A stretch of 64,000 nucleotides of DNA from Cognatundibacterium squillarum (GTDB taxonomy: Bacteria; Pseudomonadota; Gammaproteobacteria; Burkholderiales; Burkholderiaceae_D): positions 1-64,000 of the forward strand of contig NZ_BMYU01000003.1 of the NCBI RefSeq assembly GCF_014652435.1, read 5' to 3'. The notes under the pieces were generated by a model. It did not search any database and was not told the origin of the DNA. It saw nothing but the letters and a program-made list of their open reading frames with translations. Positions 54,227 through 64,000 of this stretch are shown here, in pieces. The translations under genes were made by a program, and so were the position numbers. The stretch's first letter is position 1. Every line of letters starts with the position of its first letter.

Positions 54227-55555
54227 GTGCGACAGTCAGGACAGCATACGCTGTCTGTATCTTGCATCAGTGATACTAATGCGTCAATCAAGCGCATACG
54301 GCAAAGGCTGCGTTACACTTACGTGGTAAGCGTTTTGCGCAACACCGTGCGTCTGACACGCCCATCCTCGTGCTTTCTGACTGAACTGCAAACTCAGGTG
54401 AAACCAAATTCCGGCCCTTCTGTTATCCGGCAATTACTGCCTTATCTGACGCTGGCAGCAGTGCTGCACGGTGGCTTGCTGGCTGCGCTTAACGGCGAAT
54501 GGTTGTCGCAAGAACCCGATGCACCGGCGGCGCTGCAGATCAGTCTGACGGAGGCAGCACCCGCGCCCGTACCTGAAGTTGCGCAAGCGGCGACGCAGGC
54601 TGCAAAAAAATCCGGGCAGCCTGCGAAGTCAGCGGCGGCTGGCGGTTCACCACGCCGCGCTGCGATCCGCGCTCCGACGCAGCCCGTCATCGCCGATGCG
54701 GTGATTGCCGCAGAACCGGTTTTACCGCTGGCTGACAGCAGCCTGATCCCCGCGCTGTCTGCAGTTACTGCAACCACTGCCAGCACAGACGATGCTCACA
54801 AAATCAGCGCAGGGAATGGTAATGCTGCTGAAGCGCAGGGCGTCAGTGCTGCCGACGATGCGCCGCGCCTGAGTACAACACAGATCATCGCGCCGCCATC
54901 CGTGACGATGCAGATGCGTATCGTGCGCGAAACGCCGGGACAAAATCCCATGTACGGCGTCGGTGAAGTGCGCTGGCAGCATGACAGCCAGCATTACCGG
55001 CTGGAACTGAATGCCGGACTGGATTTGCTGCTGACTTCGGTCACGCTGTATCAGTCGGTCAGCGAAGGGCAAATTACTCAGGCTGCGCTGCAACCACGCA
55101 TCCTCAGCGAAAAACGGCGCGGCCGCAGTGAAACCGCGACGCATTTTGACCGTAGTGGCGCGACGGTGACCTTTTCGTCTTCGAATAAAACACTTGCACT
55201 GCATTCCGGCGCACAAGACCGCGCCAGCGTACTATTGCAACTGGCAGCGCTGGGCAAAGCTGATCCGGGCTGGTTTCAGGCGGGACGACGTTTCCGGATT
55301 CAGGTTGCGGAAGACCGCGATGCAATGGATTTTGTATTTGAAGTGGTGGAAGAAACCACGCTGAAAACCAGCGCAGGCACTTATCGCTGCTGGCATTTAC
55401 GCAGACCACCACTGGCGGGCAAATACAATTCTGCACTGGATATCTGGCTGGCACCGGATCTGCACTGGCTGCCGGTGCAGATCCGCAATACAGAAAGCCA
55501 TGGCGCAGTCACCACACAAACCCTGCGCAGTACGGAATGGAGTTCACCCTCATGA
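54227..55555 (+). CDS. DUF3108 protein with membrane anchor and Ala/Pro-rich linker
   Basis: Up to 442 residues; the start is uncertain. The first 60 residues look unlike a natural N-terminus, and a GTG at 54398 just before the membrane segment is a candidate. After the anchor (LLPYLTLAAVLHGGLLAALNGEWL) comes an Ala/Pro-rich linker (about 105-220), resembling the periplasmic span of TonB. The DUF3108 domain covers about 235-440 (YGVGEVRWQHDSQHYRLELNAGLDLLL; PDLHWLPVQIR). The next gene encodes the same domain and overlaps it, suggesting duplication. Function unknown; probably periplasmic. Confidence 0.75.
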   Translation: MRQSGQHTLSVSCISDTNASIKRIRQRLRYTYVVSVLRNTVRLTRPSSCFLTELQTQVKPNSGPSVIRQLLPYLTLAAVLHGGLLAALNGEWLSQEPDAPAALQISLTEAAPAPVPEVAQAATQAAKKSGQPAKSAAAGGSPRRAAIRAPTQPVIADAVIAAEPVLPLADSSLIPALSAVTATTASTDDAHKISAGNGNAAEAQGVSAADDAPRLSTTQIIAPPSVTMQMRIVRETPGQNPMYGVGEVRWQHDSQHYRLELNAGLDLLLTSVTLYQSVSEGQITQAALQPRILSEKRRGRSETATHFDRSGATVTFSSSNKTLALHSGAQDRASVLLQLAALGKADPGWFQAGRRFRIQVAEDRDAMDFVFEVVEETTLKTSAGTYRCWHLRRPPLAGKYNSALDIWLAPDLHWLPVQIRNTESHGAVTTQTLRSTEWSSPS

Positions 55556-56295
55556 AAAAAATATTGATACGCAGTTTGCTGAGCCTGATGCTGCTGGGCA
55601 GCGCTGCAGCACACGCCGCTGAAGCTGCCGCATTTTCGCTGGCACCGTCTGCAGAATTGCGTTACACGATTAAAGCCAAACAAAGCGGTATTCCGGTCAG
55701 TGGCAATGCCACCGTGCAATGGCAGGCGGACGATAAAAAATACAGCGTCCACAGCGAAACCCGCGCCATGCTGATCGGCAAAATTCTCGATACCGGCAGC
55801 CGTGGCAGCATTGACAGTTTCGGTCTGGCACCGGATCAGTTTAATGAAAAGCGTTTCAATAAACCGGAAACCATCACCACGTTTGACCGCGCTAAAAAGA
55901 CGCTTAAGTTTTCAGCATCCGAGCAAACCTATACGCTGAAAGGCGGCGAGCAGGATCGCAGCAGCGCGGTATGGCAAGTGATTGCGCTGATCCGCGCCAA
56001 TCCGGATAAAGCCGTCACCGGACAGGAATGGAAATTATTCGTGGCCGGACGCCGCGATGCCGATCCGTGGACTTTCCGTGTGGTCGGCAATGAAACCCTG
56101 CAAACGGCGATGGGCCCGCAAGCCTGCCTGCATTTAAGCAAAGCACCACCGGCAGATTCCAAAGACCAGCAACTGGATATCTGGCTGGCACCCGGTCTGG
56201 ACTGGTATCCGGTGCGTTTGCGCTTCAGCGATGCGGATGGTGACTTCGTTGATCAGACTTTGGAAAGCCTGAAAAAGACAGGCGTAGGTTCTTAA
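55552..56295 (+). CDS. Exported DUF3108 protein
   Basis: 247 residues from the ATG at 55552, which overlaps the previous stop (ATGA). A signal peptide ends AAAHAAEAAA. The DUF3108 domain fills the rest: LRYTIKAKQSGIPVSGNATVQWQ (read in pieces), then DKKYSVHSETRAMLIGKIL, DRAKKTLKFSASEQTYTLKG and DIWLAPGLDWYPVRLRFSD. It is similar in arrangement to the C-terminal half of the gene before, so the two are probably paralogues. No function is established. Confidence 0.85.
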   Translation: MKKILIRSLLSLMLLGSAAAHAAEAAAFSLAPSAELRYTIKAKQSGIPVSGNATVQWQADDKKYSVHSETRAMLIGKILDTGSRGSIDSFGLAPDQFNEKRFNKPETITTFDRAKKTLKFSASEQTYTLKGGEQDRSSAVWQVIALIRANPDKAVTGQEWKLFVAGRRDADPWTFRVVGNETLQTAMGPQACLHLSKAPPADSKDQQLDIWLAPGLDWYPVRLRFSDADGDFVDQTLESLKKTGVGS

Positions 56296-56354
56296 TTTTC
56301 GGGAAAGTTTTATAAAATTTCCGGAGCGCAATATCGTTCCGGACAGAAACAGGA

Positions 56355-56392
56355 CGGTTTCATTTCCACATGGAAATGAAACCGTTTTTTTT
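56355..56392 (+). terminator. Rho-independent terminator after the DUF3108 pair
   Basis: CGGTTTCATTTCCA (56355-56368) and TGGAAATGAAACCG (56371-56384) form a 14-base stem, then eight T. It separates the DUF3108 operon from the carrier-protein cluster. Confidence 0.93.
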
Positions 56393-56485
56393 CGCAGAAA
56401 GTTTGCATTTTTTCACGCTCACGTCAGACAGTTCGTCTATCCTATTGGGTTATTACGTTTAGTTACAATTTCCTGCCCACTGCGA

Positions 56486-56923
56486 ATGATGCCTACGCCA
56501 GCGCCATTTTCTGCATTCCGCATCCGTCAGCGCCGGCGCGTTGCCGCCCGCCCTTCGGTCTGCTGTGATCTGGCATTTATTCCGGCAGTCAGCGCTTCAC
56601 TGCAGCAATTCGGCGACCGCTATCTGCACAGAATTTTCACACCTGCAGAAATTCAGGACGCCCGTCCCGGCAGCAGCGGTTTTGCCGCCAGTCTGGCAGC
56701 GCGCTTTGCCGCGAAAGAAGCCTGCTTCAAATTACTGAATCCGGATGCTGACACCGCGTTACCGTGGAAACAGGTGGAAGTCGTGCGTCCGCGCGGTCGT
56801 GCGCCATTCATACGTCTGCATCAGGATTTACGTCACATTGCTGCAAGGCAAGGGATTTACTATATTACAGTCAGCCTCAGCCACGATCAGGATTACGCGA
56901 TTGCGGTTGCCAGCGCTGGCTGA
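56486..56923 (+). CDS. AcpS-type 4'-phosphopantetheinyl transferase
   Basis: 145 residues (or 144 from the second ATG). Holds the AcpS signature: a conserved aspartate in CCDLAFIP, FGDRYLHRIFTPAEIQDAR, and the metal/CoA motif SLAARFAAKEACFKLL near 70-84; the C-terminal SLSHDQDYAIAVA is typical. Such enzymes move phosphopantetheine from CoA to a serine on a carrier protein. It directly precedes a stand-alone carrier-protein gene, so it is probably dedicated to it rather than to fatty acid synthesis. Confidence 0.9.
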   Translation: MMPTPAPFSAFRIRQRRRVAARPSVCCDLAFIPAVSASLQQFGDRYLHRIFTPAEIQDARPGSSGFAASLAARFAAKEACFKLLNPDADTALPWKQVEVVRPRGRAPFIRLHQDLRHIAARQGIYYITVSLSHDQDYAIAVASAG

Positions 56924-56973
56924 CATTCTTAAAAAAACAGATAACAATCACTTTTCAAAAAAGGGGAATAACG

Positions 56974-57213
56974 ATGAGCAAAGATACTATCCGTCAGATT
57001 CTGAAAGACCACGGCAAATTCACCGTCGATGTCGCCACACTGTCTGATGACGCAGATTTGTACGAAGCCGGTATGACATCGCACGCCAGTGTGAATGTGA
57101 TGCTGGCACTGGAAGATGCATTTGATCTGGAATTTCCTGACCGCATGCTGAAACGCAGCGTGTTTGAAAGCATCAGCGCGATTAACGCAGCGATTGAAGA
57201 ACTGAAAGGCTGA
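56974..57213 (+). CDS. Free-standing acyl/aminoacyl carrier protein
   Basis: 79 residues from the ATG at 56974, with AAGGGG seven bases upstream; a longer frame has no ribosome site. It is a four-helix carrier protein. The phosphopantetheine serine is S36 in LYEAGMTSHASVNVM, where the usual D-S-L is T-S-H. The third helix reads ALEDAFDLEFPDRMLKRSVF. That pattern is the one seen in carrier proteins of amino acid:[carrier protein] ligases, not the fatty acid ACP. It lies between the PPTase and the acyl-CoA-dehydrogenase-like gene. Confidence 0.92.
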   Translation: MSKDTIRQILKDHGKFTVDVATLSDDADLYEAGMTSHASVNVMLALEDAFDLEFPDRMLKRSVFESISAINAAIEELKG

Positions 57214-57215
57214 TC

Positions 57216-58382
57216 ATGTGCACCGCCCTCACACTGACGGAACAGGTAAAGCAGATCGCGAATGATGTCGCGGCTGTGCATGCCGATGCAGTAGACCGCG
57301 AAGCACGTTTCCCGCACGAAGCCATCGCTGCGCTGAAACAGGCCGGACTGATGAGCGCCTACGTGCCGCAATCCCTCGGCGGTGCCGGCGTCAGCCTGCG
57401 CGAGCTGGTGGTGATGTGCGATACGCTGGCGCGTGCCTGCGCATCCACGGCCATGATTTTCGCGATGCACCAGATTCAGGTGATTACGATCGTCGATCAT
57501 GCACCGGATGATGCATGGTTCAGCCAGTATCTGCGCGATCTGGTGCAGCATCAGTATCTGATTGCATCGGTTACGTCGGAAGTGAATGTGGGCGGTGAAA
57601 TGCGCCGCAGTCAGTGTGCAGTGGAAAGCGATGGCCAGCGTTATCACGTGGTCAAAGATGCGACCACCATTTCTTACGGCGCGCAAGCCGATGATTTACT
57701 GCTGACCGCACGCCGCAATGCGGAGGCAGGCCCGAGCGATCAGGTACTGATTCTGTTGCGCAAAGGCGATTTCACGCTGGAACAAAAAGGTAACTGGGAC
57801 ACCATGGGCATGCGCGGCACCTGCAGCCCGCCGTTTCTGGTCACTGCCAGCGGCGATGCCGCGCAAATCATGAAAGTGCCGTTCGGCGATATGTCGGCAC
57901 GGACTGTCGTTCCGGTTTCGCATTTACTGTGGGGCGGTTGCTGGAGCGGTTGCGCATCGGCTGCAGTCAACAAAGCACGCGCTTTTGTGCGCAAACAGGC
58001 GCGCAGCAAACCGGGCACCGTACCGCCAACCGCGACCCGTCTGGCGGAACTGGTCAGCATGCTGCAGGGCTTGCGCAGCGCGGTGGAAGCCTGTCTGCAT
58101 GAATATGAAGTCTTGTCAGCCCGTGAAGATGCAGCGACCGGCCCGTTGTCGTCGATAGGCTACTCGGTGCGGATGAATAATCTGAAAATTGATGCGACTG
58201 AAGAATTACCGCGCATCGTGCAAAAAGCCCTGTCGATCTGCGGCATTGTGGCCTATAAAAACGGTACACCGTTCAGCATGAACCGCCATGTACGCGACAG
58301 TTTGTCCGCGATGCTGATGGTGGGCAATGACCGCATTCTGGCAACCAATGCCAATCTGCTGCTGGTACTCAAAGACGACTGA
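57216..58382 (+). CDS. Acyl-CoA-dehydrogenase-like flavoprotein acting with a carrier protein
   Basis: 388 residues, full-length ACAD fold: a helical N-domain (LKQAGLMSAYVPQSLGGAGV), middle beta domain (LIASVTSEVNVGG; NWDTMGMRGTCSPPFLV) and C-terminal helices. At the position of the usual catalytic glutamate (MCAD-type Y-E-G-T) it reads MVGND, with V369 eight residues after the conserved RD (R360-D361). So it is not an ordinary acyl-CoA dehydrogenase. Tightly linked (two bases) to the carrier protein, it probably oxidises an aminoacyl or acyl group held on it. Compare prolyl-carrier dehydrogenases in pyrrole synthesis. The substrate is unproven. Confidence 0.85.
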   Translation: MCTALTLTEQVKQIANDVAAVHADAVDREARFPHEAIAALKQAGLMSAYVPQSLGGAGVSLRELVVMCDTLARACASTAMIFAMHQIQVITIVDHAPDDAWFSQYLRDLVQHQYLIASVTSEVNVGGEMRRSQCAVESDGQRYHVVKDATTISYGAQADDLLLTARRNAEAGPSDQVLILLRKGDFTLEQKGNWDTMGMRGTCSPPFLVTASGDAAQIMKVPFGDMSARTVVPVSHLLWGGCWSGCASAAVNKARAFVRKQARSKPGTVPPTATRLAELVSMLQGLRSAVEACLHEYEVLSAREDAATGPLSSIGYSVRMNNLKIDATEELPRIVQKALSICGIVAYKNGTPFSMNRHVRDSLSAMLMVGNDRILATNANLLLVLKDD

Positions 58383-58397
58383 TAAGGAGAACAAACA

Positions 58398-59309
58398 ATG
58401 TCTGCTGATTTTACGCCTGAAGGCTTGCACGATGATCTGGTGGCTGCCGGCCACATTATTCCTGTCGGTGTACAGGGCATTTTCGGACGCGGTCCGGTGT
58501 TTGAACAAGTGCTGCGCCAGTTTGATGATTATGTATCGCGCGTCGCTGCGCCGGATCTGGCAACACGGATGTCGTTTCCGCCTTGCCTTGATCGCAAAGT
58601 GCTGGAACGCAGTGAATATCTGGATTCTTTCCCGCAACTGGCCGGTACGATTTTCAGCTTCACCGGCAATGATGCGCAACACAAAGAATTGTCTGAGAAT
58701 GTGCATGAAGGCCGTCCGTGGACCCATCTGCAAACCATGACAGCAGTTTGCCTCACACCGGCTGCCTGCTATCCGGTGTATCCGAGCTTTACCGGCACGC
58801 TGCCGGAAGGCGGCCGTCTGGTGGATATGCAGAACTGGGTATTCCGTCACGAGCCATCGCCGGAACCAACCCGTATGCAGTCTTTCCGCGTGCGTGAATT
58901 CGTGCGTGTCGGTACGCCGGATGTGGTGGTTGCATGGCGTGATCTGTGGCTGCAGCGCGGTCTGGAAATTCTGACTTCGCTCGGTCTGCCTGCGCGTGCC
59001 GAAGTCGCTTCCGATCCTTTCTTCGGTCGCGGTGGCCGTATGCTGGCAGCGAATCAGCGCGAACAGCAACTGAAGTTTGAAATTGTGGTGCCGGTGATCT
59101 GGCAGGAAAAACCGACCGCGGTGTGTTCCTTCAATTACCATCAGGATCACTTCGGTAAGCTGTTTGAAATTCAGAACCCGAACGGCGATACCGCACACAC
59201 GGCCTGCCTCGGCTTTGGTCTGGAACGTATCGTGATGGCACTGTTCCGCACCCACGGTATGCAACTGGCAGACTGGCCAGCCAGCGTCAGGGAGCAACTG
59301 GGCTTATGA
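58398..59309 (+). CDS. Amino acid:[carrier protein] ligase (SerRS-like)
   Basis: 303 residues. A reduced class II synthetase core without any tRNA-binding domain. Motif 2 is FRHEPSPEPTRMQSFRVREF (150-169) and motif 3 ACLGFGLERIVMALF (269-283). Likely zinc ligands, by pattern with the atypical SerRS family, are C124, E167 and C270. Characterised relatives in Bradyrhizobium and others adenylate glycine or alanine and transfer it to the phosphopantetheine of a small carrier protein rather than to tRNA. The carrier gene is two genes upstream. SD AAGGAG lies eight bases before the ATG. Confidence 0.9.
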   Translation: MSADFTPEGLHDDLVAAGHIIPVGVQGIFGRGPVFEQVLRQFDDYVSRVAAPDLATRMSFPPCLDRKVLERSEYLDSFPQLAGTIFSFTGNDAQHKELSENVHEGRPWTHLQTMTAVCLTPAACYPVYPSFTGTLPEGGRLVDMQNWVFRHEPSPEPTRMQSFRVREFVRVGTPDVVVAWRDLWLQRGLEILTSLGLPARAEVASDPFFGRGGRMLAANQREQQLKFEIVVPVIWQEKPTAVCSFNYHQDHFGKLFEIQNPNGDTAHTACLGFGLERIVMALFRTHGMQLADWPASVREQLGL

Positions 59310-60304
59310 GCGTCGCCGCCTTTCGTCCCGCACTGGAAAACGGCTATCAGGCGCATGCGCTGCATGCGCCCGACTGCGAATGGGCGGAAACCAATTGCTA
59401 TATTGATGTCTGGGTAGAGTTGCTGCACAGCCTCGGCCTGAATCCGCTGGCCTGTTTATCCATGGTGTTTGCCAATGATTTTGACGGCGATCAGTGGACG
59501 TTTTACAAGCCGCCACATGAAGATTTATTCACGCTGTACGGTATCGATGTACAGGAACTGAATGTCTGGCGCGGCTTGCTGCCGAATGCGCTGACGCAGC
59601 TGGAGCGCGGCCGTCTGGTGCTGACCGAAAGCGATGCGTTCTGGCTGCCGGATACAGCCGGTACTGATTACCGTACCAATCATGTGAAAACCACGATTGC
59701 GATTCAGGAAATCGACGTCGCAGCACAAAAGCTCGGTTACTTCCACAACAGCAGTTATCACGTGCTGCAGGGTGAAGATTTCGTGGAAACTTTCCGCGTC
59801 GGCAAACCGTATGATCCGGCTTTCATGCCGCTGTTTGCCGAATTTGTGCGCACCGACCGCAAACAGATTTTGCCGGAAACCGAACTGGCTTCGCGTGCGC
59901 TGACGCTGCTGCGCAAGCATGTGGCGCGTCGTCCTGAGCACAATCCGGTGCAGGCGTTTGCGCCGGTGTTTTTGCAGGAGGTGGATCGTTTAAAAAAGGA
60001 AGGCATGGGCGCTTATCATGCGTATGCGTTCGCCAATCTGCGCCAGCTCGGTGCCGGATTTTCGCTGGGTGGTGAAATGCTGCGCTGGCTGACAGCGCAG
60101 CAACAGGGCGATTTTTCTGAAGCTGCCGCAGCATTCGCTGCCATTTCCGCCACCACCAAAACCCTGCTGATGAAAACAGCGCGTGCCGTAATGAGTCCGC
60201 GTGTCGTCGATCTGGCTGGTCTGGTGGATGAACTGAGCACCCATTACAGCCACGGTATGACAGCGCTGGAAGCGGCGCTGAACGCCGCTAATGTGCAGAA
60301 ATAA
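59306..60304 (+). CDS. DUF1839 family protein
   Basis: 332 residues. Opens with ETNCYIDVWVELLHSLGLNPLA and SMVFANDFDGDQWTFYKPPHEDLFTLYGID (in pieces), then DTAGTDYRTNHVKTTIAI and KLGYFHNSSYHVLQGEDF, which are the DUF1839 hallmarks. A reactive cysteine at about 31 and a histidine near 147 stand in conserved stretches and could be catalytic; this is a guess. The family is found next to amino acid:[carrier protein] ligases. It overlaps that gene by four bases. A role in taking the aminoacyl group from the carrier is possible. Confidence 0.85.
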   Translation: MSVAAFRPALENGYQAHALHAPDCEWAETNCYIDVWVELLHSLGLNPLACLSMVFANDFDGDQWTFYKPPHEDLFTLYGIDVQELNVWRGLLPNALTQLERGRLVLTESDAFWLPDTAGTDYRTNHVKTTIAIQEIDVAAQKLGYFHNSSYHVLQGEDFVETFRVGKPYDPAFMPLFAEFVRTDRKQILPETELASRALTLLRKHVARRPEHNPVQAFAPVFLQEVDRLKKEGMGAYHAYAFANLRQLGAGFSLGGEMLRWLTAQQQGDFSEAAAAFAAISATTKTLLMKTARAVMSPRVVDLAGLVDELSTHYSHGMTALEAALNAANVQK

Positions 60305-60306
60305 TC

Positions 60307-62808
60307 ATGCAGGCTTTTCTCTCCCCCAGCGTTTCTGCCGTGGACAGCCAGTGGGCTATGCAGATCACCGCATCCGGGCAGTTTTCAGCCCCTTCCGCAC
60401 TGAACTGGCAGGCTGCACTGACTGCGCAGCCGCCCTGCACTGCCGCGTCGGTATACCGCGCTGCGAATCAGGCTTTACCGGAACCGCTGGATCAGCATGA
60501 TGTATGGTTTCAGACCACGCTGACGCTGCCGGAGGATCTGGCCTTTCTGCATTTTGATGGCCTGGCCGGACCGGCACAGATTTTCTGGAATGATGTGCAG
60601 ATCGGGCAATCTGAGAATATGTTCATGCGCTGCAGCCTGCCGGACAGCCTGTTCGGTGCACAACGCAGCGGTACGCTGACCCTGTATTTTCCGGCGCTGA
60701 ACACTGTGCTGGCGCAACGCCGTCCGCGTCCGCACTGGAAAACCCGTCTGGTCGAACAGCAGCAATTGCGCTGGCTGCGCACCAGTCTGCTCGGACGTAT
60801 GCCGGGCTGGTCACCGACCGGTGCACCCGTCGGGCCGTATCGTCCGGTCTGGTTTGAGCGACGTCAGACCTGGCGCATCAGCCAGCTCCGCTTGCAACCG
60901 GAACTGCATGGCCATGATGGCTATGTCCGCTTTCACGCCGATATTCAGCAAACGCACAAATTGAAACGCGCTTTACTGCACGTCGGCCCGCACAGCGCGG
61001 AACTCAGCATCCTGCCGCAGGATGCGCAGCGCAGCGAATTGCAGGGCGAATTATTTTTCCCCGAACCGCAGCGCTGGTGGCCGCATACGCACGGCACACC
61101 GCATCTGTACACCTGCCTGCTGGAACTGGAAGGCGAAGACCAGCATCTGATGCTGCCGCTCGGTGAAACCGGTTTCCGCAGCCTGCACGCGGATCAGCAG
61201 GATGGCGGCTACACCGTGTATGTGAACGATGTCGCAGTATTCTGCCGTGGTGCCTGCTGGACACCGGCGGACGTCACGCGCTTATACGCTGAACCGGCGT
61301 CGCTGCGCCAGCATCTGCAACTGGCACGTGATGCCGGTATGAATATGCTGCGTCTGCCGGGCACAATGCAGTTTGAGCAGGATGATTTTTATCAATTGTG
61401 TAATGAGATGGGCATCATGGTCTGGCAGGACATGATGTTCGCGAATATGGATTATCCGGTGGGCGATGCAGCGTTTGCAGATATGGTTGCGGCAGAGTCT
61501 GCCGCTTTCCTGCAACGCACCCAGTCTGCAGTCTGCCTTGCCATCATTTGCGGCAACAGCGAAGTCGAACAACAGGCAGCAATGCTTGGTCAGCCTGCAG
61601 AGAACTGGCGTAATCCTTTCTTCAGCGACACCTTACCGGCGCTGTGCAAACAATGGCGGCCGGATTTGCTGTATATCCCGTCCAGCCCCAGCGGCGGCGT
61701 GATGCCGTTTCAGGTGGATGCCGGTATTGCGCATTACTTCGGCGTTGGCGCTTATCTGCGCACGCCGGATGATGCACGTTTATCCGGTGTGCGTTTCACC
61801 TCGGAATGTCTGGGCTTTGCGAATATGCCGGAAGACAGTCTGCTCGACCGTATGCATGGCAACGGTGACAGCCCCGGCGCACACCCGTCATGGAAACAGG
61901 GTGTGCCGCGTGATCACGGCACTGGCTGGGATTTTGAAGATGTGCGCGATCATTATCTGACGCAAATGTATCAGACGGATGCAATGCGCCTGCGTTATGC
62001 CGACCGCGAACGCTATCTGGCGCTGACGCGCCGCGTAACCGGTCAGTTAATGGAACAAACCCTGCAAACCTGGCGGCGTTCCGGTTCTGCCTGCCACGGT
62101 GCATTAATCTGGTTCTGGAAAGATTTGCGCGAAGGTGCAGGCTGGGGCGTGGTGGATGCGCACGGACAAGCGAAAGCCGCTTACTACTATCTGAAGCGCA
62201 GCATGGCAGCCCAAACGGCTTTTCTGACCGATGAAGGTTTAAACGGTCTGGCCTGCCATGTCGTGAATGACAGTGCGCAGACCATGCGCGGCACGCTGAC
62301 ACTGCGTTTGCTGCGCTTACCTGCGACGACGACCGCTGAAGTCAGTCTGCCATTGGAACTGGCACCGCACAGTCAGTGGCAGCAGCGAGCCGATGCCTTG
62401 CTGCCTTACTTCATGGATACCGCGTATGCCTACCGCTTCGGGCCGGTCAGCCATCAGGTCGCCGCCGTACACTGGCAGGCTGAAGACGACGCGGCAGGCA
62501 GCATTGCAGGCTATGCATTTCCGGCTGGCCATGTGTTACCTGCCGAGTCGCAAGCCAGCGTAACACTGCAAGTTATTGATCAGACAGCACAGCAAGCGCA
62601 GATTCGTCTGTGCAGCGACCGCTTCCTGCAGGCGGTGCATCTGCAGGCAAACGGCGTGCAGTGCAGTGACAATTATTTCCATTTATATCCGGGCGTGCCG
62701 CATACGCTGCAGCTGTCCGGCGCTGCTGCCAACACCCGTTTGCAACTGAGTGCGCTGAATCTGAACGGCGTGCTGAAACTGGCCTTCCCTGCGGAGGCCG
62801 CAACGTGA
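60307..62808 (+). CDS. Glycoside hydrolase family 2 (beta-mannosidase-like) protein
   Basis: 833 residues. Jelly-roll and Ig-like domains lead to a TIM barrel with FCRGACWTPADV and ARDAGMNMLRLPGTMQFEQDDF. The likely acid/base is E419 in ICGNSEVEQQ, and the nucleophile E500 in FTSECLGFANMP, as in GH2 beta-mannosidases. There is no signal peptide, so it is cytoplasmic. It starts two bases after the DUF1839 stop, inside the carrier-protein operon. It may trim a glycosylated intermediate or product, or act on an imported sugar conjugate. Confidence 0.88.
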   Translation: MQAFLSPSVSAVDSQWAMQITASGQFSAPSALNWQAALTAQPPCTAASVYRAANQALPEPLDQHDVWFQTTLTLPEDLAFLHFDGLAGPAQIFWNDVQIGQSENMFMRCSLPDSLFGAQRSGTLTLYFPALNTVLAQRRPRPHWKTRLVEQQQLRWLRTSLLGRMPGWSPTGAPVGPYRPVWFERRQTWRISQLRLQPELHGHDGYVRFHADIQQTHKLKRALLHVGPHSAELSILPQDAQRSELQGELFFPEPQRWWPHTHGTPHLYTCLLELEGEDQHLMLPLGETGFRSLHADQQDGGYTVYVNDVAVFCRGACWTPADVTRLYAEPASLRQHLQLARDAGMNMLRLPGTMQFEQDDFYQLCNEMGIMVWQDMMFANMDYPVGDAAFADMVAAESAAFLQRTQSAVCLAIICGNSEVEQQAAMLGQPAENWRNPFFSDTLPALCKQWRPDLLYIPSSPSGGVMPFQVDAGIAHYFGVGAYLRTPDDARLSGVRFTSECLGFANMPEDSLLDRMHGNGDSPGAHPSWKQGVPRDHGTGWDFEDVRDHYLTQMYQTDAMRLRYADRERYLALTRRVTGQLMEQTLQTWRRSGSACHGALIWFWKDLREGAGWGVVDAHGQAKAAYYYLKRSMAAQTAFLTDEGLNGLACHVVNDSAQTMRGTLTLRLLRLPATTTAEVSLPLELAPHSQWQQRADALLPYFMDTAYAYRFGPVSHQVAAVHWQAEDDAAGSIAGYAFPAGHVLPAESQASVTLQVIDQTAQQAQIRLCSDRFLQAVHLQANGVQCSDNYFHLYPGVPHTLQLSGAAANTRLQLSALNLNGVLKLAFPAEAAT

Positions 62809-64000
62809 CCACCATGTTTCATCCTCCTGCTGCACAGGCTTTCTGGCTGGGCGACGCTGCCGCACCGATGCTCGCGCATTATCATCCGGCGCAACACAAC
62901 AGCAAACTCAGCCGCCGCTGCGGCGTGGTGCTGTGCGCACCGTTCGGCCATGAATACATGGTCAGTTATCTGTCACTGCGTATGCTGGCAGCACGCTTAT
63001 CAGCGGCCGGTTTTGATGTCCTGAGTTTTGATTACCAAAATACCGGTGATGCTGCCGACATCAGCAGCGCACAGATTGCGGCATGGCAGGACAATATCCG
63101 CACCGCCGCTGCGTGGCTGCGTGAACAGGCGCAGGTACAGCATTTGTGTCTGGCCGGTTTGCGCTTCGGCGCTTTGCTGGCAGCCAGTGTCAGTGCGGAT
63201 TGCCGCGCTGATGGCTTATTGCTGTGTGCACCGGTGATCAGTGGCCGTGCCTATGCGCGCGAATTGCAGGTGCTGCGCAATATGGGTTTGCCGGAAGAAG
63301 TACTGGCTACCATGTCGGCCGAAGAGCTGACCGGATATACCTTTCCGCAAGAAACCCGCAGCGCAATGGCCGCGCTGGATCTGAAAAAAATGGCGGTACC
63401 GGCGTGTCCGGTATTACTGCTGAGCCGCGATGATATTGAAGGTCAGGAAGCCGCACTGGCTGCGCAATGGCAGCAGCAACATGATGCAGTCAGCTTTTCT
63501 GCAGTGCCCGGCTATCAGGCCATGATGCAGGTGGACGCGCACAGCAGCGTGGTACCGCATGCGATGTGGCAGCATTGTACAGACTGGCTGAGCAGCCAGT
63601 TTCCGGAAATACATGCAGCGACGACAGCCCCGAAATTAACCGCATCTGCCAACGAAGCACAATGGCTGCAGAGCGCAATCGCTGTCCATGAACAGATCGT
63701 GCATTTCGACGGCATGGAAGGTGTGCTGAGTCTGCCGCAAGAACCGGATACACGCAAACCTGCAGTGATTCTGTGCAATATTGGTGCTAATCACCGTACC
63801 GGTAATCACCGTCTGTATGTGAAGCTGGCTCGCGCCCTGATACAGCAAGGCTTCACTGTGCTGCGCTTCGATAAATCCGGTATCGGTTACAGCCGCGCTA
63901 CCGCAGCGGGTAATCATAATGATGTGCATGCCGCTGATGGTGTTGCGGACATCCGTGCGGCGATGGATTTTCTGGAGCAGCAGGGTTATCAGGAATTTGT
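62805..64000 (+). CDS. Tandem alpha/beta hydrolase-like protein (cut by window edge)
   Basis: At least 398 residues, running off the end. The GTG at 62805 overlaps the previous stop and has GGAGG seven bases before; an ATG three codons later is less well placed. Two alpha/beta-hydrolase units: residues 1-265, then a second starting near 300 (AVILCNIGANHRTGNHRLYV; RFDKSGIGYSRA). In the first unit the nucleophile elbow reads GLRFG (118-122) instead of G-x-S-x-G, so R120 stands where serine should be. This resembles hydrolase-like proteins linked to exosortase-associated clusters. The second unit's active site is outside the window. Confidence 0.8.
   Translation, partial: MTTMFHPPAAQAFWLGDAAAPMLAHYHPAQHNSKLSRRCGVVLCAPFGHEYMVSYLSLRMLAARLSAAGFDVLSFDYQNTGDAADISSAQIAAWQDNIRTAAAWLREQAQVQHLCLAGLRFGALLAASVSADCRADGLLLCAPVISGRAYARELQVLRNMGLPEEVLATMSAEELTGYTFPQETRSAMAALDLKKMAVPACPVLLLSRDDIEGQEAALAAQWQQQHDAVSFSAVPGYQAMMQVDAHSSVVPHAMWQHCTDWLSSQFPEIHAATTAPKLTASANEAQWLQSAIAVHEQIVHFDGMEGVLSLPQEPDTRKPAVILCNIGANHRTGNHRLYVKLARALIQQGFTVLRFDKSGIGYSRATAAGNHNDVHAADGVADIRAAMDFLEQQGYQEF

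Follow-up and report, generated by a model that had tools for sequence, protein, structure and literature searches.

The analyzed window is a 64,000-nt stretch of the Cognatundibacterium squillarum contig NZ_BMYU01000003.1, at whose end ORF calls delineate seven genes lying in the same direction from 56486 to 64583 (Table 1). The seventh passes the window end by 583 bases and is completed by a stop at 64583 once the sequence is extended past 64 kb on the same contig, as the original prediction had proposed. From first to last, neighboring genes are separated by 50, 2 and 15 bases, then overlap by 4 bases, lie 2 bases apart and overlap by 4 bases again. The identities originally given to these consecutive genes were borne out by the ORF calls, Pfam and the NF005479/NF005480 models, and the “several” four-base overlaps came down to two. 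The carrier start was set by us at the ATG at 56974, which is preceded by a ribosome-binding-like stretch. Two upstream DUF3108 genes look like a separate unit, since the hairpin at 56354-56393, terminator-like in being followed by a run of T, probably ends that unit. A promoter scan returned 4 matches against a mean of 4.6 in shuffles, that is, no better than the shuffles.

Table 1. Features at the end of the window, with predicted roles and supporting evidence
Feature	Coordinates	Strand	Evidence
Terminator-like hairpin	56354..56393	+	14-pair stem + T run
AcpS-family phosphopantetheinyl transferase (PPTase), predicted carrier primer	56486..56923	+	PF01648 E 6.9e-15; D28, E78, K82 in 36/36 relatives
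Carrier protein, 79 aa	56974..57213	+	PF00550; NF005480; predicted phosphopantetheine serine S36 in GMTS
ACAD-fold flavoprotein, predicted oxidizer of carrier-bound aminoacyl	57216..58382	+	PF02771/PF00441
SerRS-like amino acid:[carrier protein] (aa:CP) ligase	58398..59309	+	NF005479; 4h2w/3mey matches
DUF1839, predicted carrier-protein-dependent amide synthase with Cys31 nucleophile	59306..60304	+	PF08893 E 3e-107; model
GH2 beta-mannosidase-like glycosidase	60307..62808	+	GH2 domains
Double alpha/beta hydrolase, hydr2_PEP-like half (Arg120) + hydr1_PEP-like half (Cys404)	62805..64000, on to 64583	+	Hydrolase_4

Genes at related loci were called with a simple ORF script. The per-residue counts given below omit fragments, namely 2 of 52 rows for the ACAD-fold flavoprotein, 2 of 56 for the ligase, 5 of 52 for DUF1839, 8 of 48 for the GH2 enzyme and 2 of 38 for the double hydrolase; with near-copies and some others omitted, the full-length sequence sets A1 and A2 took 43 of 47 and 40 of 50 sequences, respectively.

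The ligase scores 416 bits against NF005479 (curated cut-off 357) and the carrier 111 bits against NF005480 (curated cut-off 72); no Pfam family matched the ligase at E 0.001. The ligase aligns with the structures 4h2w and 3mey with E values of at most 2e-74, and residues C124, E167 and C270, which by this alignment we take to be the three zinc-ligand positions (Cys, Glu, Cys), are kept in 54/54 relatives. In this 303-aa protein, residues 118-301 correspond to residues 313-509 of a SerRS chain of 527 aa, and the N-terminal tRNA-binding domain is absent, on which sequence ground tRNA charging was set aside as its likely role. In the carrier, S36 is kept in 52/52 members and positions 47, 51, 53 and 56 are each acidic in no fewer than 51 of the 52. 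The predicted loading of an amino acid onto the carrier by the ligase is well supported, and the original placement of a SerRS-like aa:CP ligase beside a carrier and a PPTase stands.

Both the N- and C-terminal ACAD domains of the flavoprotein (PF02771 and PF00441) score above their gathering thresholds. The two positions that correspond to the catalytic-base Glu of MCAD and IVD were placed from alignments to ACADs other than IVD, using motifs that we assume to mark them. Neither holds a Glu in any of the 50 relatives: position 369 is V/I and position 235 is S/T/A in 50/50, and H236, W239 and W243 are likewise kept in all. Hence, the protein appears to be without both usual ACAD catalytic glutamates, and canonical dehydrogenation, as a version of the on-carrier oxidation in the original prediction, is not supported; we dropped it as first choice and retain it as an unlikely alternative for this one step, compatible with any of the wider readings discussed below. 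Under this alternative a true acyl dehydrogenase would yield an alpha,beta-unsaturated (e.g., dehydroalanyl) aminoacyl-carrier like the prolyl-carrier dehydrogenases, to whose model the flavoprotein bears a weak likeness (29.9 bits at E 2.4e-7, where the model's cut-off is 650), and both the ACAD domains and the best matches in a PDB profile search, which are named acyl-CoA dehydrogenases, speak for it. Against it, beyond the apparently missing glutamates, the substrate would lack a beta carbon if it were glycine, and the profile matches also include DnmZ, 3m9v and 4kcf, which we take to be amino-sugar N-oxygenases. An oxygenase-type attack at the nitrogen or alpha carbon is more likely than alpha,beta-dehydrogenation. 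A two-component oxygenase would need a flavin reductase, and none is encoded among the seven genes.

The original prediction gave no role to DUF1839, for which a structure model was obtained at a pLDDT of 93.3. With an E threshold of 1e-3, Foldseek recovered 17 PDB matches, every one of them to AziU2-U3, CtaG or CcbD (prob 1.00, TM 0.46-0.59 over 327-371 alignment columns, about the full length). The best of these are AziU2-U3 and CtaG, which act on non-sugar substrates and are not known to make sugar amides, so that the fold leaves the acceptor unfixed; to CcbD the identity is 12-13% at a TM of about 0.5. A sequence-only search of the PDB gave no relevant match up to E 5, and BtrH_N (PF14399) matched 2 of 43 DUF1839 members with a best E of 0.033, short of membership in that family. 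C31, the putative nucleophile, is present in 46/47 sequences, with one gap. T/S130 and H147, each kept in 47/47, would fit a swapped C(T/S)H triad, but H126 is kept in 47/47 as well; a catalytic Cys and a rearranged triad (Cys, Thr/Ser, His) had been proposed for DUF1839 from modeling (PMC10318531). According to PMC12945683, CcbD links a carrier-bound amino acid to an amino sugar by an amide bond, via a Cys thioester. The CcbD/LmbD proteins (PDB 7yn1, 7yn2, 9dkr, 9dks) share with the predicted DUF1839 reaction the carrier-bound amino acid, the Cys thioester and the sugar amine acceptor, and with its model the overall fold and a basic carrier site near the C terminus; they differ in the low identity, a Cys-His-Glu triad where a rearranged one is proposed for DUF1839, the means of loading (SerRS-like in our case) and gene context. 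On the strength of the model, DUF1839 is likely the last-step enzyme of the pathway.

The glycosidase has GH2 domains with both of what we presume to be its catalytic residues, E500 in 40/40 members and E419 in 37/40 (Asp in the others). Inspection by eye found no signal peptide, and the enzyme looks cytosolic. In the double hydrolase the elbow residues R120 and C404 are kept in 36/36 members, one of which (L034) is doubtfully aligned. The Arg elbow is also found in 14/14 hydr2_PEP proteins above cut-off and the Cys elbow in the neighboring hydrolase 1 homolog at all 14 loci. This rules out the view of the double hydrolase as a decayed, or in the original wording “defective”, enzyme. Rather, it has in common with the exosortase-A-associated hydrolases 2 and 1 (TIGR03101 and TIGR03100) an Arg/Cys elbow pair, defined here by observation. 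These two proteins are fused in 2/14 loci, as the two halves are in the window gene, and a carrier-protein gene lies 10 bases away in one of the two such loci examined more widely. The window protein differs from them in scoring below both curated cut-offs (128.6 vs 168.45 for TIGR03100 and 114.8 vs 202.75 for TIGR03101).

Linkage among relatives had been set beforehand as the refuting test for the cluster, and its outcome did not refute it. Where 7 kb or more flanks the ligase on each side (32 loci), the full set of seven genes is present at 20 loci and the GH2 gene at 29; across relatives the gene order is shuffled and the linkage kept. DUF1839 is found in 12/299 sampled Pseudomonadota genomes, all of them among the 21 with a ligase above cut-off, and in 0/278 of those without one (Fisher p 3e-16, uncorrected for kinship). 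In the phylum of the myxobacterium Pyxidicoccus it occurs in 7/146 genomes, the same seven with a ligase above cut-off, three of which had been reached via ligase loci. In each of these 19 genomes, 30 to 126 bases separate the ligase match from the DUF1839 match. Chance clustering is rejected on the kept linkage, the full loci and the Fisher test: the seven genes form a real cassette. Three loci (L034, L044 and L056) have the ligase and no DUF1839 in the DNA examined, from which their contigs extend further. Apart from the window, the sample gave 11 type I stretches, of which seven hold the double hydrolase and two the flippase fusion described below. One of the 19 genomes has an additional DUF1839 close to the end of a contig.

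A second, stripped cluster type, whose position in the tree is weakly supported (81/67), comprises the ligase, the flavoprotein and usually the carrier. It holds the Bradyrhizobium aa:CP ligase 1, Bll0957 (PDB 3mey), which resembles the window ligase in family, zinc-ligand positions and, per the accessible part of PMC10888616, an adjoining acyl-CoA dehydrogenase gene, bll0958. The cluster carrying its ortholog (L099, 714 bits) differs in having no DUF1839, GH2 or double hydrolase gene within about 20 kb. Hence, Bradyrhizobium, the comparison originally suggested, exemplifies another cluster type.

Several cassettes lie in a glycan context. In L092 and L093 the double hydrolase is fused behind a PF13440 flippase, and in L092 a GT4 gene sits beside the fusion. 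Genes for a flippase, initiating sugar transferases, an O-antigen ligase and a UDP-sugar dehydrogenase adjoin, or are at most two genes from, the cassettes of L032, L098/L035, L097 and L042. The presence of PF13440 as such is uninformative because it was matched in 49/49 genomes; both fusions stand out by their long reading frames. The majority of cassette-flanking genes are not glycan genes, and the Undibacterium gene that adjoins and is convergent to the double hydrolase, at 64531-65841 of the contig, showed no support for flippase identity. For the flank survey, 181 ORFs were picked and reduced to 155 by removing those above 700 aa and 11 near-copies; a further 25 (short, in a wrong frame inside the cassette, or from the Undibacterium locus L047) were dropped by eye, leaving 130 that were scanned, with 100 ORFs from 17 stretches as control. 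The best 25 of 137 families were seen for the flanks and the best 25 of 95 for the control. Some flanks are relatives, so that the matches from L019 and L025 are not independent.

This kind of neighborhood, together with a predicted amide on an amino sugar, is already described in a 2010 note added in proof in PMC2922099, and the cluster is not an unrecognized one. The published pathway has a ligase, a carrier, a redox enzyme, a conserved uncharacterized ORF (Atu2574) predicted as the amide ligase, a glycosidase and liposaccharide genes; from its position beside the ligase, Atu2574 would be a DUF1839 protein. In the accessible text of that note the pathway comes without the DUF1839 fold, the PPTase, the double hydrolase, catalytic-residue analysis or a split of cluster types. 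Relative to it, the new elements are the DUF1839 fold, the apparent lack of the ACAD glutamates, the Arg/Cys elbow pair, the flippase fusion and the two cluster types.

From the gene order, co-occurrence, families, conserved residues, predicted DUF1839 fold and the flippase fusion in two genomes we infer a carrier pathway, and with it the amino acid that is loaded, what its oxidation yields, the acceptor, the succession of steps, export, and what the GH2 enzyme and double hydrolase do. In our preferred reading, to which we give a probability of roughly 0.58, a small and probably oxidized amino acid is joined through an amide bond to an amino sugar in a glycan that is exported. Against this reading stand the remote match to CcbD with its differing triad, a fold that leaves the acceptor unfixed, the mostly non-glycan flanking genes, the three loci with no DUF1839 in the DNA examined, the double hydrolase and flippase fusion at only some loci, and the absence of a flavin reductase among the seven genes. 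The PPTase would prime the carrier; the ligase would activate a small amino acid, by analogy Gly or Ala, as its adenylate and load it on the carrier thiol; and the flavoprotein would oxidize the carrier-bound aminoacyl. Cys31 of DUF1839 would then take the acyl and pass it to a sugar amine, giving an amide in the manner of CcbD in the lincosamide pathway. Trimming or transglycosylation of the acceptor sugar may fall to the GH2 enzyme. The double hydrolase with its Arg/Cys pair may act on the acyl or carrier intermediate in proofreading or a second transfer, after which a flippase would export the glycan. The carrier loading and sugar link of the original interpretation survive; its omission of the likely last-step enzyme does not. 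A bolder version, which we hold only tentatively and on balance doubt, sees a widespread tailoring of Gram-negative surface glycans, in which a ligase derived from a tRNA synthetase would supply a dedicated carrier, an N-oxygenase-like ACAD would make an N-oxidized glycyl or alanyl group, DUF1839 would seal it onto a lipid-linked amino sugar for export by the flippase, the Arg/Cys pair would serve an analogous exosortase-A carrier branch, and the Bradyrhizobium enzyme would be a derived, stripped offshoot with another product.

The same chemistry of loading, oxidation and condensation could instead act on a free amino sugar to give a secreted, diffusible lincosamide-like metabolite. Of the fold relatives, CcbD is the one that acts on a sugar, and its acceptor is a free thiooctose (PMC12945683); moreover, no glycosyltransferase is found among the seven genes. 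We nevertheless consider this rather unlikely in view of the flippase fusion and polysaccharide gene neighbors in several lineages, and of a hydrolase pair common to exosortase-A-type families. That DUF1839 acylates an amine of a lipid, polyamine, peptide or protein, with the GH2 enzyme as an accessory, would accord with the non-sugar substrates of its best fold matches, CtaG and AziU2-U3; the presence of the GH2 gene in 29/32 loci with its catalytic Glu kept makes it improbable. CcbD too accepts other amines, according to the available text of PMC12945683.

The first proposal for aa:CP ligases was the supply of an amino acid for a nonribosomal peptide or siderophore whose synthesis is encoded at another place in the genome, and their chemical resemblance to adenylation domains, noted in PMC9437257, agrees with it. 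For this cassette we regard it as very improbable: no NRPS domain is among the best 25 of 137 flank families, the cassette has its own candidate transferase, and PMC2922099, in its available part, argues against it.

On the preferred reading of an amide-bonded amino sugar in an exported glycan, the cassette gives a testable predicted role to the aa:CP ligase family, and the transferase fold, the likely acceptor class and the two cluster types narrow the assays to a few. If true, lincosamide-style carrier-to-sugar amide chemistry would also be a form of glycan tailoring in Undibacterium, myxobacteria and other Proteobacteria, and there would be a first handle on DUF1839 and the exosortase-A-associated hydrolase pair. 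Near the C terminus of DUF1839, positions 285, 293 and 299 are basic (K/R) in 47/47 members, and these residues and the acidic ones of the carrier parallel the CcbD-carrier contacts described in PMC12945683.

The original prediction described seven consecutive genes, for a PPTase, a carrier protein, an ACAD-fold flavoprotein, a SerRS-like amino acid:carrier protein ligase, a DUF1839 protein, a GH2 enzyme and a double hydrolase, and all were found as described on the plus strand of the 455,598-base contig that opens with the 64-kb window. From gene 1 to gene 7 the spacing is 50, 2, 15, -4, 2 and -4 bases, and the double-hydrolase gene extends past the window to 64583. A ligase scan of the genome collection yielded 55 loci, or 56 with that of the window, many on short contigs; the carrier, ACAD and DUF1839 genes each occur in 52, GH2 in 48, the double hydrolase in 38 and the PPTase in 36. 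Among the 32 loci having at least 7 kb on either side of the ligase, these numbers are 32 (carrier), 31 (ACAD), 30 (DUF1839), 29 (GH2), 28 (double hydrolase) and 23 (PPTase), with all seven genes present in 20, and the linkage is kept in relatives. The operon is real and conserved. Its gene order is shuffled in many loci: the PPTase-carrier pair follows DUF1839 in L024, L036 and L041, and the cassette is split into divergent halves in L043, L046, L049, L050, L052 and L054. Shuffled order with kept linkage is as expected from functional coupling, not mere block inheritance. Evidence to the contrary is that DUF1839 was not found in the DNA available for loci L034, L044 and L056, nor GH2 or the double hydrolase in L042. 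In four Undibacterium loci (L011, L013, L015 and L016), which form one clade in the ligase tree, the cassette has no recognisable PPTase gene beside the carrier.

The nearest named relatives of the ligase are from Undibacterium species (85-88% identical). Because the ligase and DUF1839 are rare both in the family of the window (3 and 2 of 145 sampled genomes, respectively) and in its genus (both in 2 of the 7 listed genomes, counting that of the window), the cassette counts as an accessory trait of patchy occurrence. Of 299 Pseudomonadota genomes, 37 match the ligase model, 21 of them over the cut-off, and all 12 genomes with DUF1839 fall among these 21 (Fisher p = 3e-16, with genomes treated without correction for kinship). 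A second sample, of 146 genomes from the phylum of a Pyxidicoccus, has ligase matches in 12, 7 over the cut-off, with DUF1839 in the same 7; it is not blind, since 3 of the 7 had been reached via ligase loci. The two matches of a pair are separated by 30 to 126 bases, and genome G255 carries an additional DUF1839 at the end of a contig.

An ACAD gene adjoins the ligase gene in all 21 over-cut-off Pseudomonadota genomes, which divide into two types. In type I (12/21), DUF1839 and GH2 lie with the carrier, ACAD and ligase genes, and the double hydrolase was found in 7 of the 11 clusters other than that of the window (14-20 kb inspected). Type II (9/21) has ACAD-ligase, with a divergent carrier gene in 7 of 9; inspection of 15-20 kb in these nine clusters revealed neither DUF1839 nor GH2 nor the double hydrolase. 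L161, from the window's own family, is a tenth such cluster (type II comprising L099-L104, L126-L128 and L161). In the ligase tree, all nine type II sequences group as a single clade (support 100/100) on a long branch; the point where this clade attaches among type I has weak support (81/67). Because the L099 ligase matches the solved Bradyrhizobium enzyme Bll0957 at 714 bits, this characterised enzyme is assigned by sequence to type II, whereas the window operon is of type I. For L161 and L104, the gene that follows encodes an O-acetylhomoserine sulfhydrylase-like or Cys/Met PLP enzyme; L103 has MetA and an aminotransferase close by; these neighbours hint at a different, perhaps sulfur-linked, type II product. 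Sixteen further genomes have a sub-cut-off ligase match only. Nine such homologues, from three families (L083-L091), lie in reading frames of 402-477 aa, with no ACAD gene seen beside them in the ~3.9 kb inspected for each; they appear to be a third kind of SerRS-like protein.

The cluster and the general hypothesis are already in print as a prediction (PMC2922099, 2010), and PMC9437257 (2022) calls the role of the amino acid:carrier protein ligase unknown. In the accessible parts of later literature, with most subscription journals outside the search, we recognised no product or assay of the pathway; the same search found no literature on DUF1839 besides PMC10318531. New here are the modelled fold match of DUF1839, the Arg/Cys hydrolase pair as read from sequence with its flippase fusion, a flavoprotein that appears to lack the catalytic bases usual for its superfamily, and the two-type split with Bll0957 outside the type of the window operon.

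An AlphaFold2 model of DUF1839, built from 43 sequences, has a mean pLDDT of 93.3 and a pTM of 0.91. Its 17 Foldseek matches in the PDB at E 1e-3 or better are all to the AziU2-U3 complex, CtaG or CcbD (327-371 alignment columns, 12-17% identity, TM 0.46-0.59). CtaG acts in closthioamide synthesis and AziU2-U3 in azinomycin synthesis. CcbD, according to PMC12945683, accepts carrier-bound proline on its catalytic Cys and passes it to the amine of a thiooctose. A 2023 survey (PMC10318531) placed DUF1839 among papain-like proteins, gave it a swapped C(T/S)H triad and speculated on a role in cell-wall glycans; the words CcbD, LmbD, CtaG and AziU are absent from its main text. Of 47 sequences compared here, 46 have C31 (the other has a gap), and T/S at 130, H126 and H147 are present in 47/47 each.

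The flavoprotein belongs to the ACAD superfamily, and its top PDB profile hits carry the name acyl-CoA dehydrogenase. By alignment of 50 relatives, the MCAD-like catalytic-base position holds V/I and the IVD-like one S/T/A in all 50, the positions being assigned from sequence alignment and MCAD/IVD motifs. H236, W239, W243, M368, N371 and R373 are likewise invariant (50/50), and are also present in nine type II enzymes. The PDB matches further include the amino-sugar N-oxygenases DnmZ, 3m9v and 4kcf. Because of the apparently missing bases and these N-oxygenase matches, an oxygenase or oxidase step is tentatively favoured; such a step was proposed for this kind of pathway in PMC2922099.

The N- and C-terminal halves of the double hydrolase resemble exosortase-A-associated hydrolases 2 and 1, respectively, both below cut-off. 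At the expected nucleophile position the N-terminal half has Arg (36/36) and the C-terminal half Cys (36/36, L034 being doubtfully aligned). Hydrolase 2 has the same Arg in all 14 loci over its cut-off; each of these small loci also holds a hydrolase 1 homologue bearing the same Cys, and in 2 of the 14 the two share one reading frame. Two such loci were viewed more widely, and as the pair adjoins a carrier-protein gene in one (L164), exosortase polysaccharide loci may share carrier-protein chemistry. In L092 and L093, from two genomes of one genus, a polysaccharide flippase is fused N-terminally to the double hydrolase; in three further genomes of their family the hydrolase is unfused in two and was not found in one. 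GH2 is nearest to beta-mannosidases, with E500 in 40/40 and E419 in 37/40.

Coordinates of features flanking the operon and of related hydrolase loci
Feature	Coordinates	Strand	Remark
Two adjacent DUF3108 genes	window 54227-56295		directly upstream of operon
Hairpin and T run	window 56354-56393		between DUF3108 pair and seven-gene operon
Convergent gene	contig 64531-65841 = L005:2532-3842	minus	overlaps 3' end of double hydrolase
Hydrolase 1/2 pair over exosortase-A cut-offs	L164:9080-11073		10 bases from carrier-protein gene
Flippase-Arg/Cys double hydrolase fusion	L092:13373-16699; L093:1957-5268		single frame, ~1100 aa

A Pfam scan compared 130 flank ORFs with 100 control ORFs from the genomes of the same loci. 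Among the matches listed, the commonest flank family is Acyl_transf_3 (5), followed, at 3 each, by GH44, polysaccharide flippases, several overlapping glycosyltransferase models, GNAT, short-chain dehydrogenases and alpha/beta hydrolases, with Bac_transf and WecG at 2 each; as some flanks come from relatives, these counts are not independent. No glycan family was matched by at least two control ORFs among the matches listed (25 of 95 families, so that single matches may be hidden). In L098 and L035 the carrier gene adjoins one for an initiating sugar transferase, and in L097 an O-antigen ligase gene lies two genes away from the carrier. L042 has a UDP-sugar dehydrogenase near the cassette, L096 a sugar-transfer ATP-grasp and L092 a GT4, and in L032 the second gene past the double hydrolase encodes a flippase. 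Most flank genes are unrelated to glycans. These glycan-type neighbours favour a glycan as the probable target of the pathway.

For the convergent gene, no Pfam match reached a useful E-value, and the fused flippase showed no detectable similarity to it. Of 12 Undibacterium-type loci, 10 keep this gene beside the double hydrolase, the contigs of the remaining two being short. The DUF3108 pair, parted from the operon by the terminator-like hairpin, has relatives in 6 loci, all Undibacterium-type.
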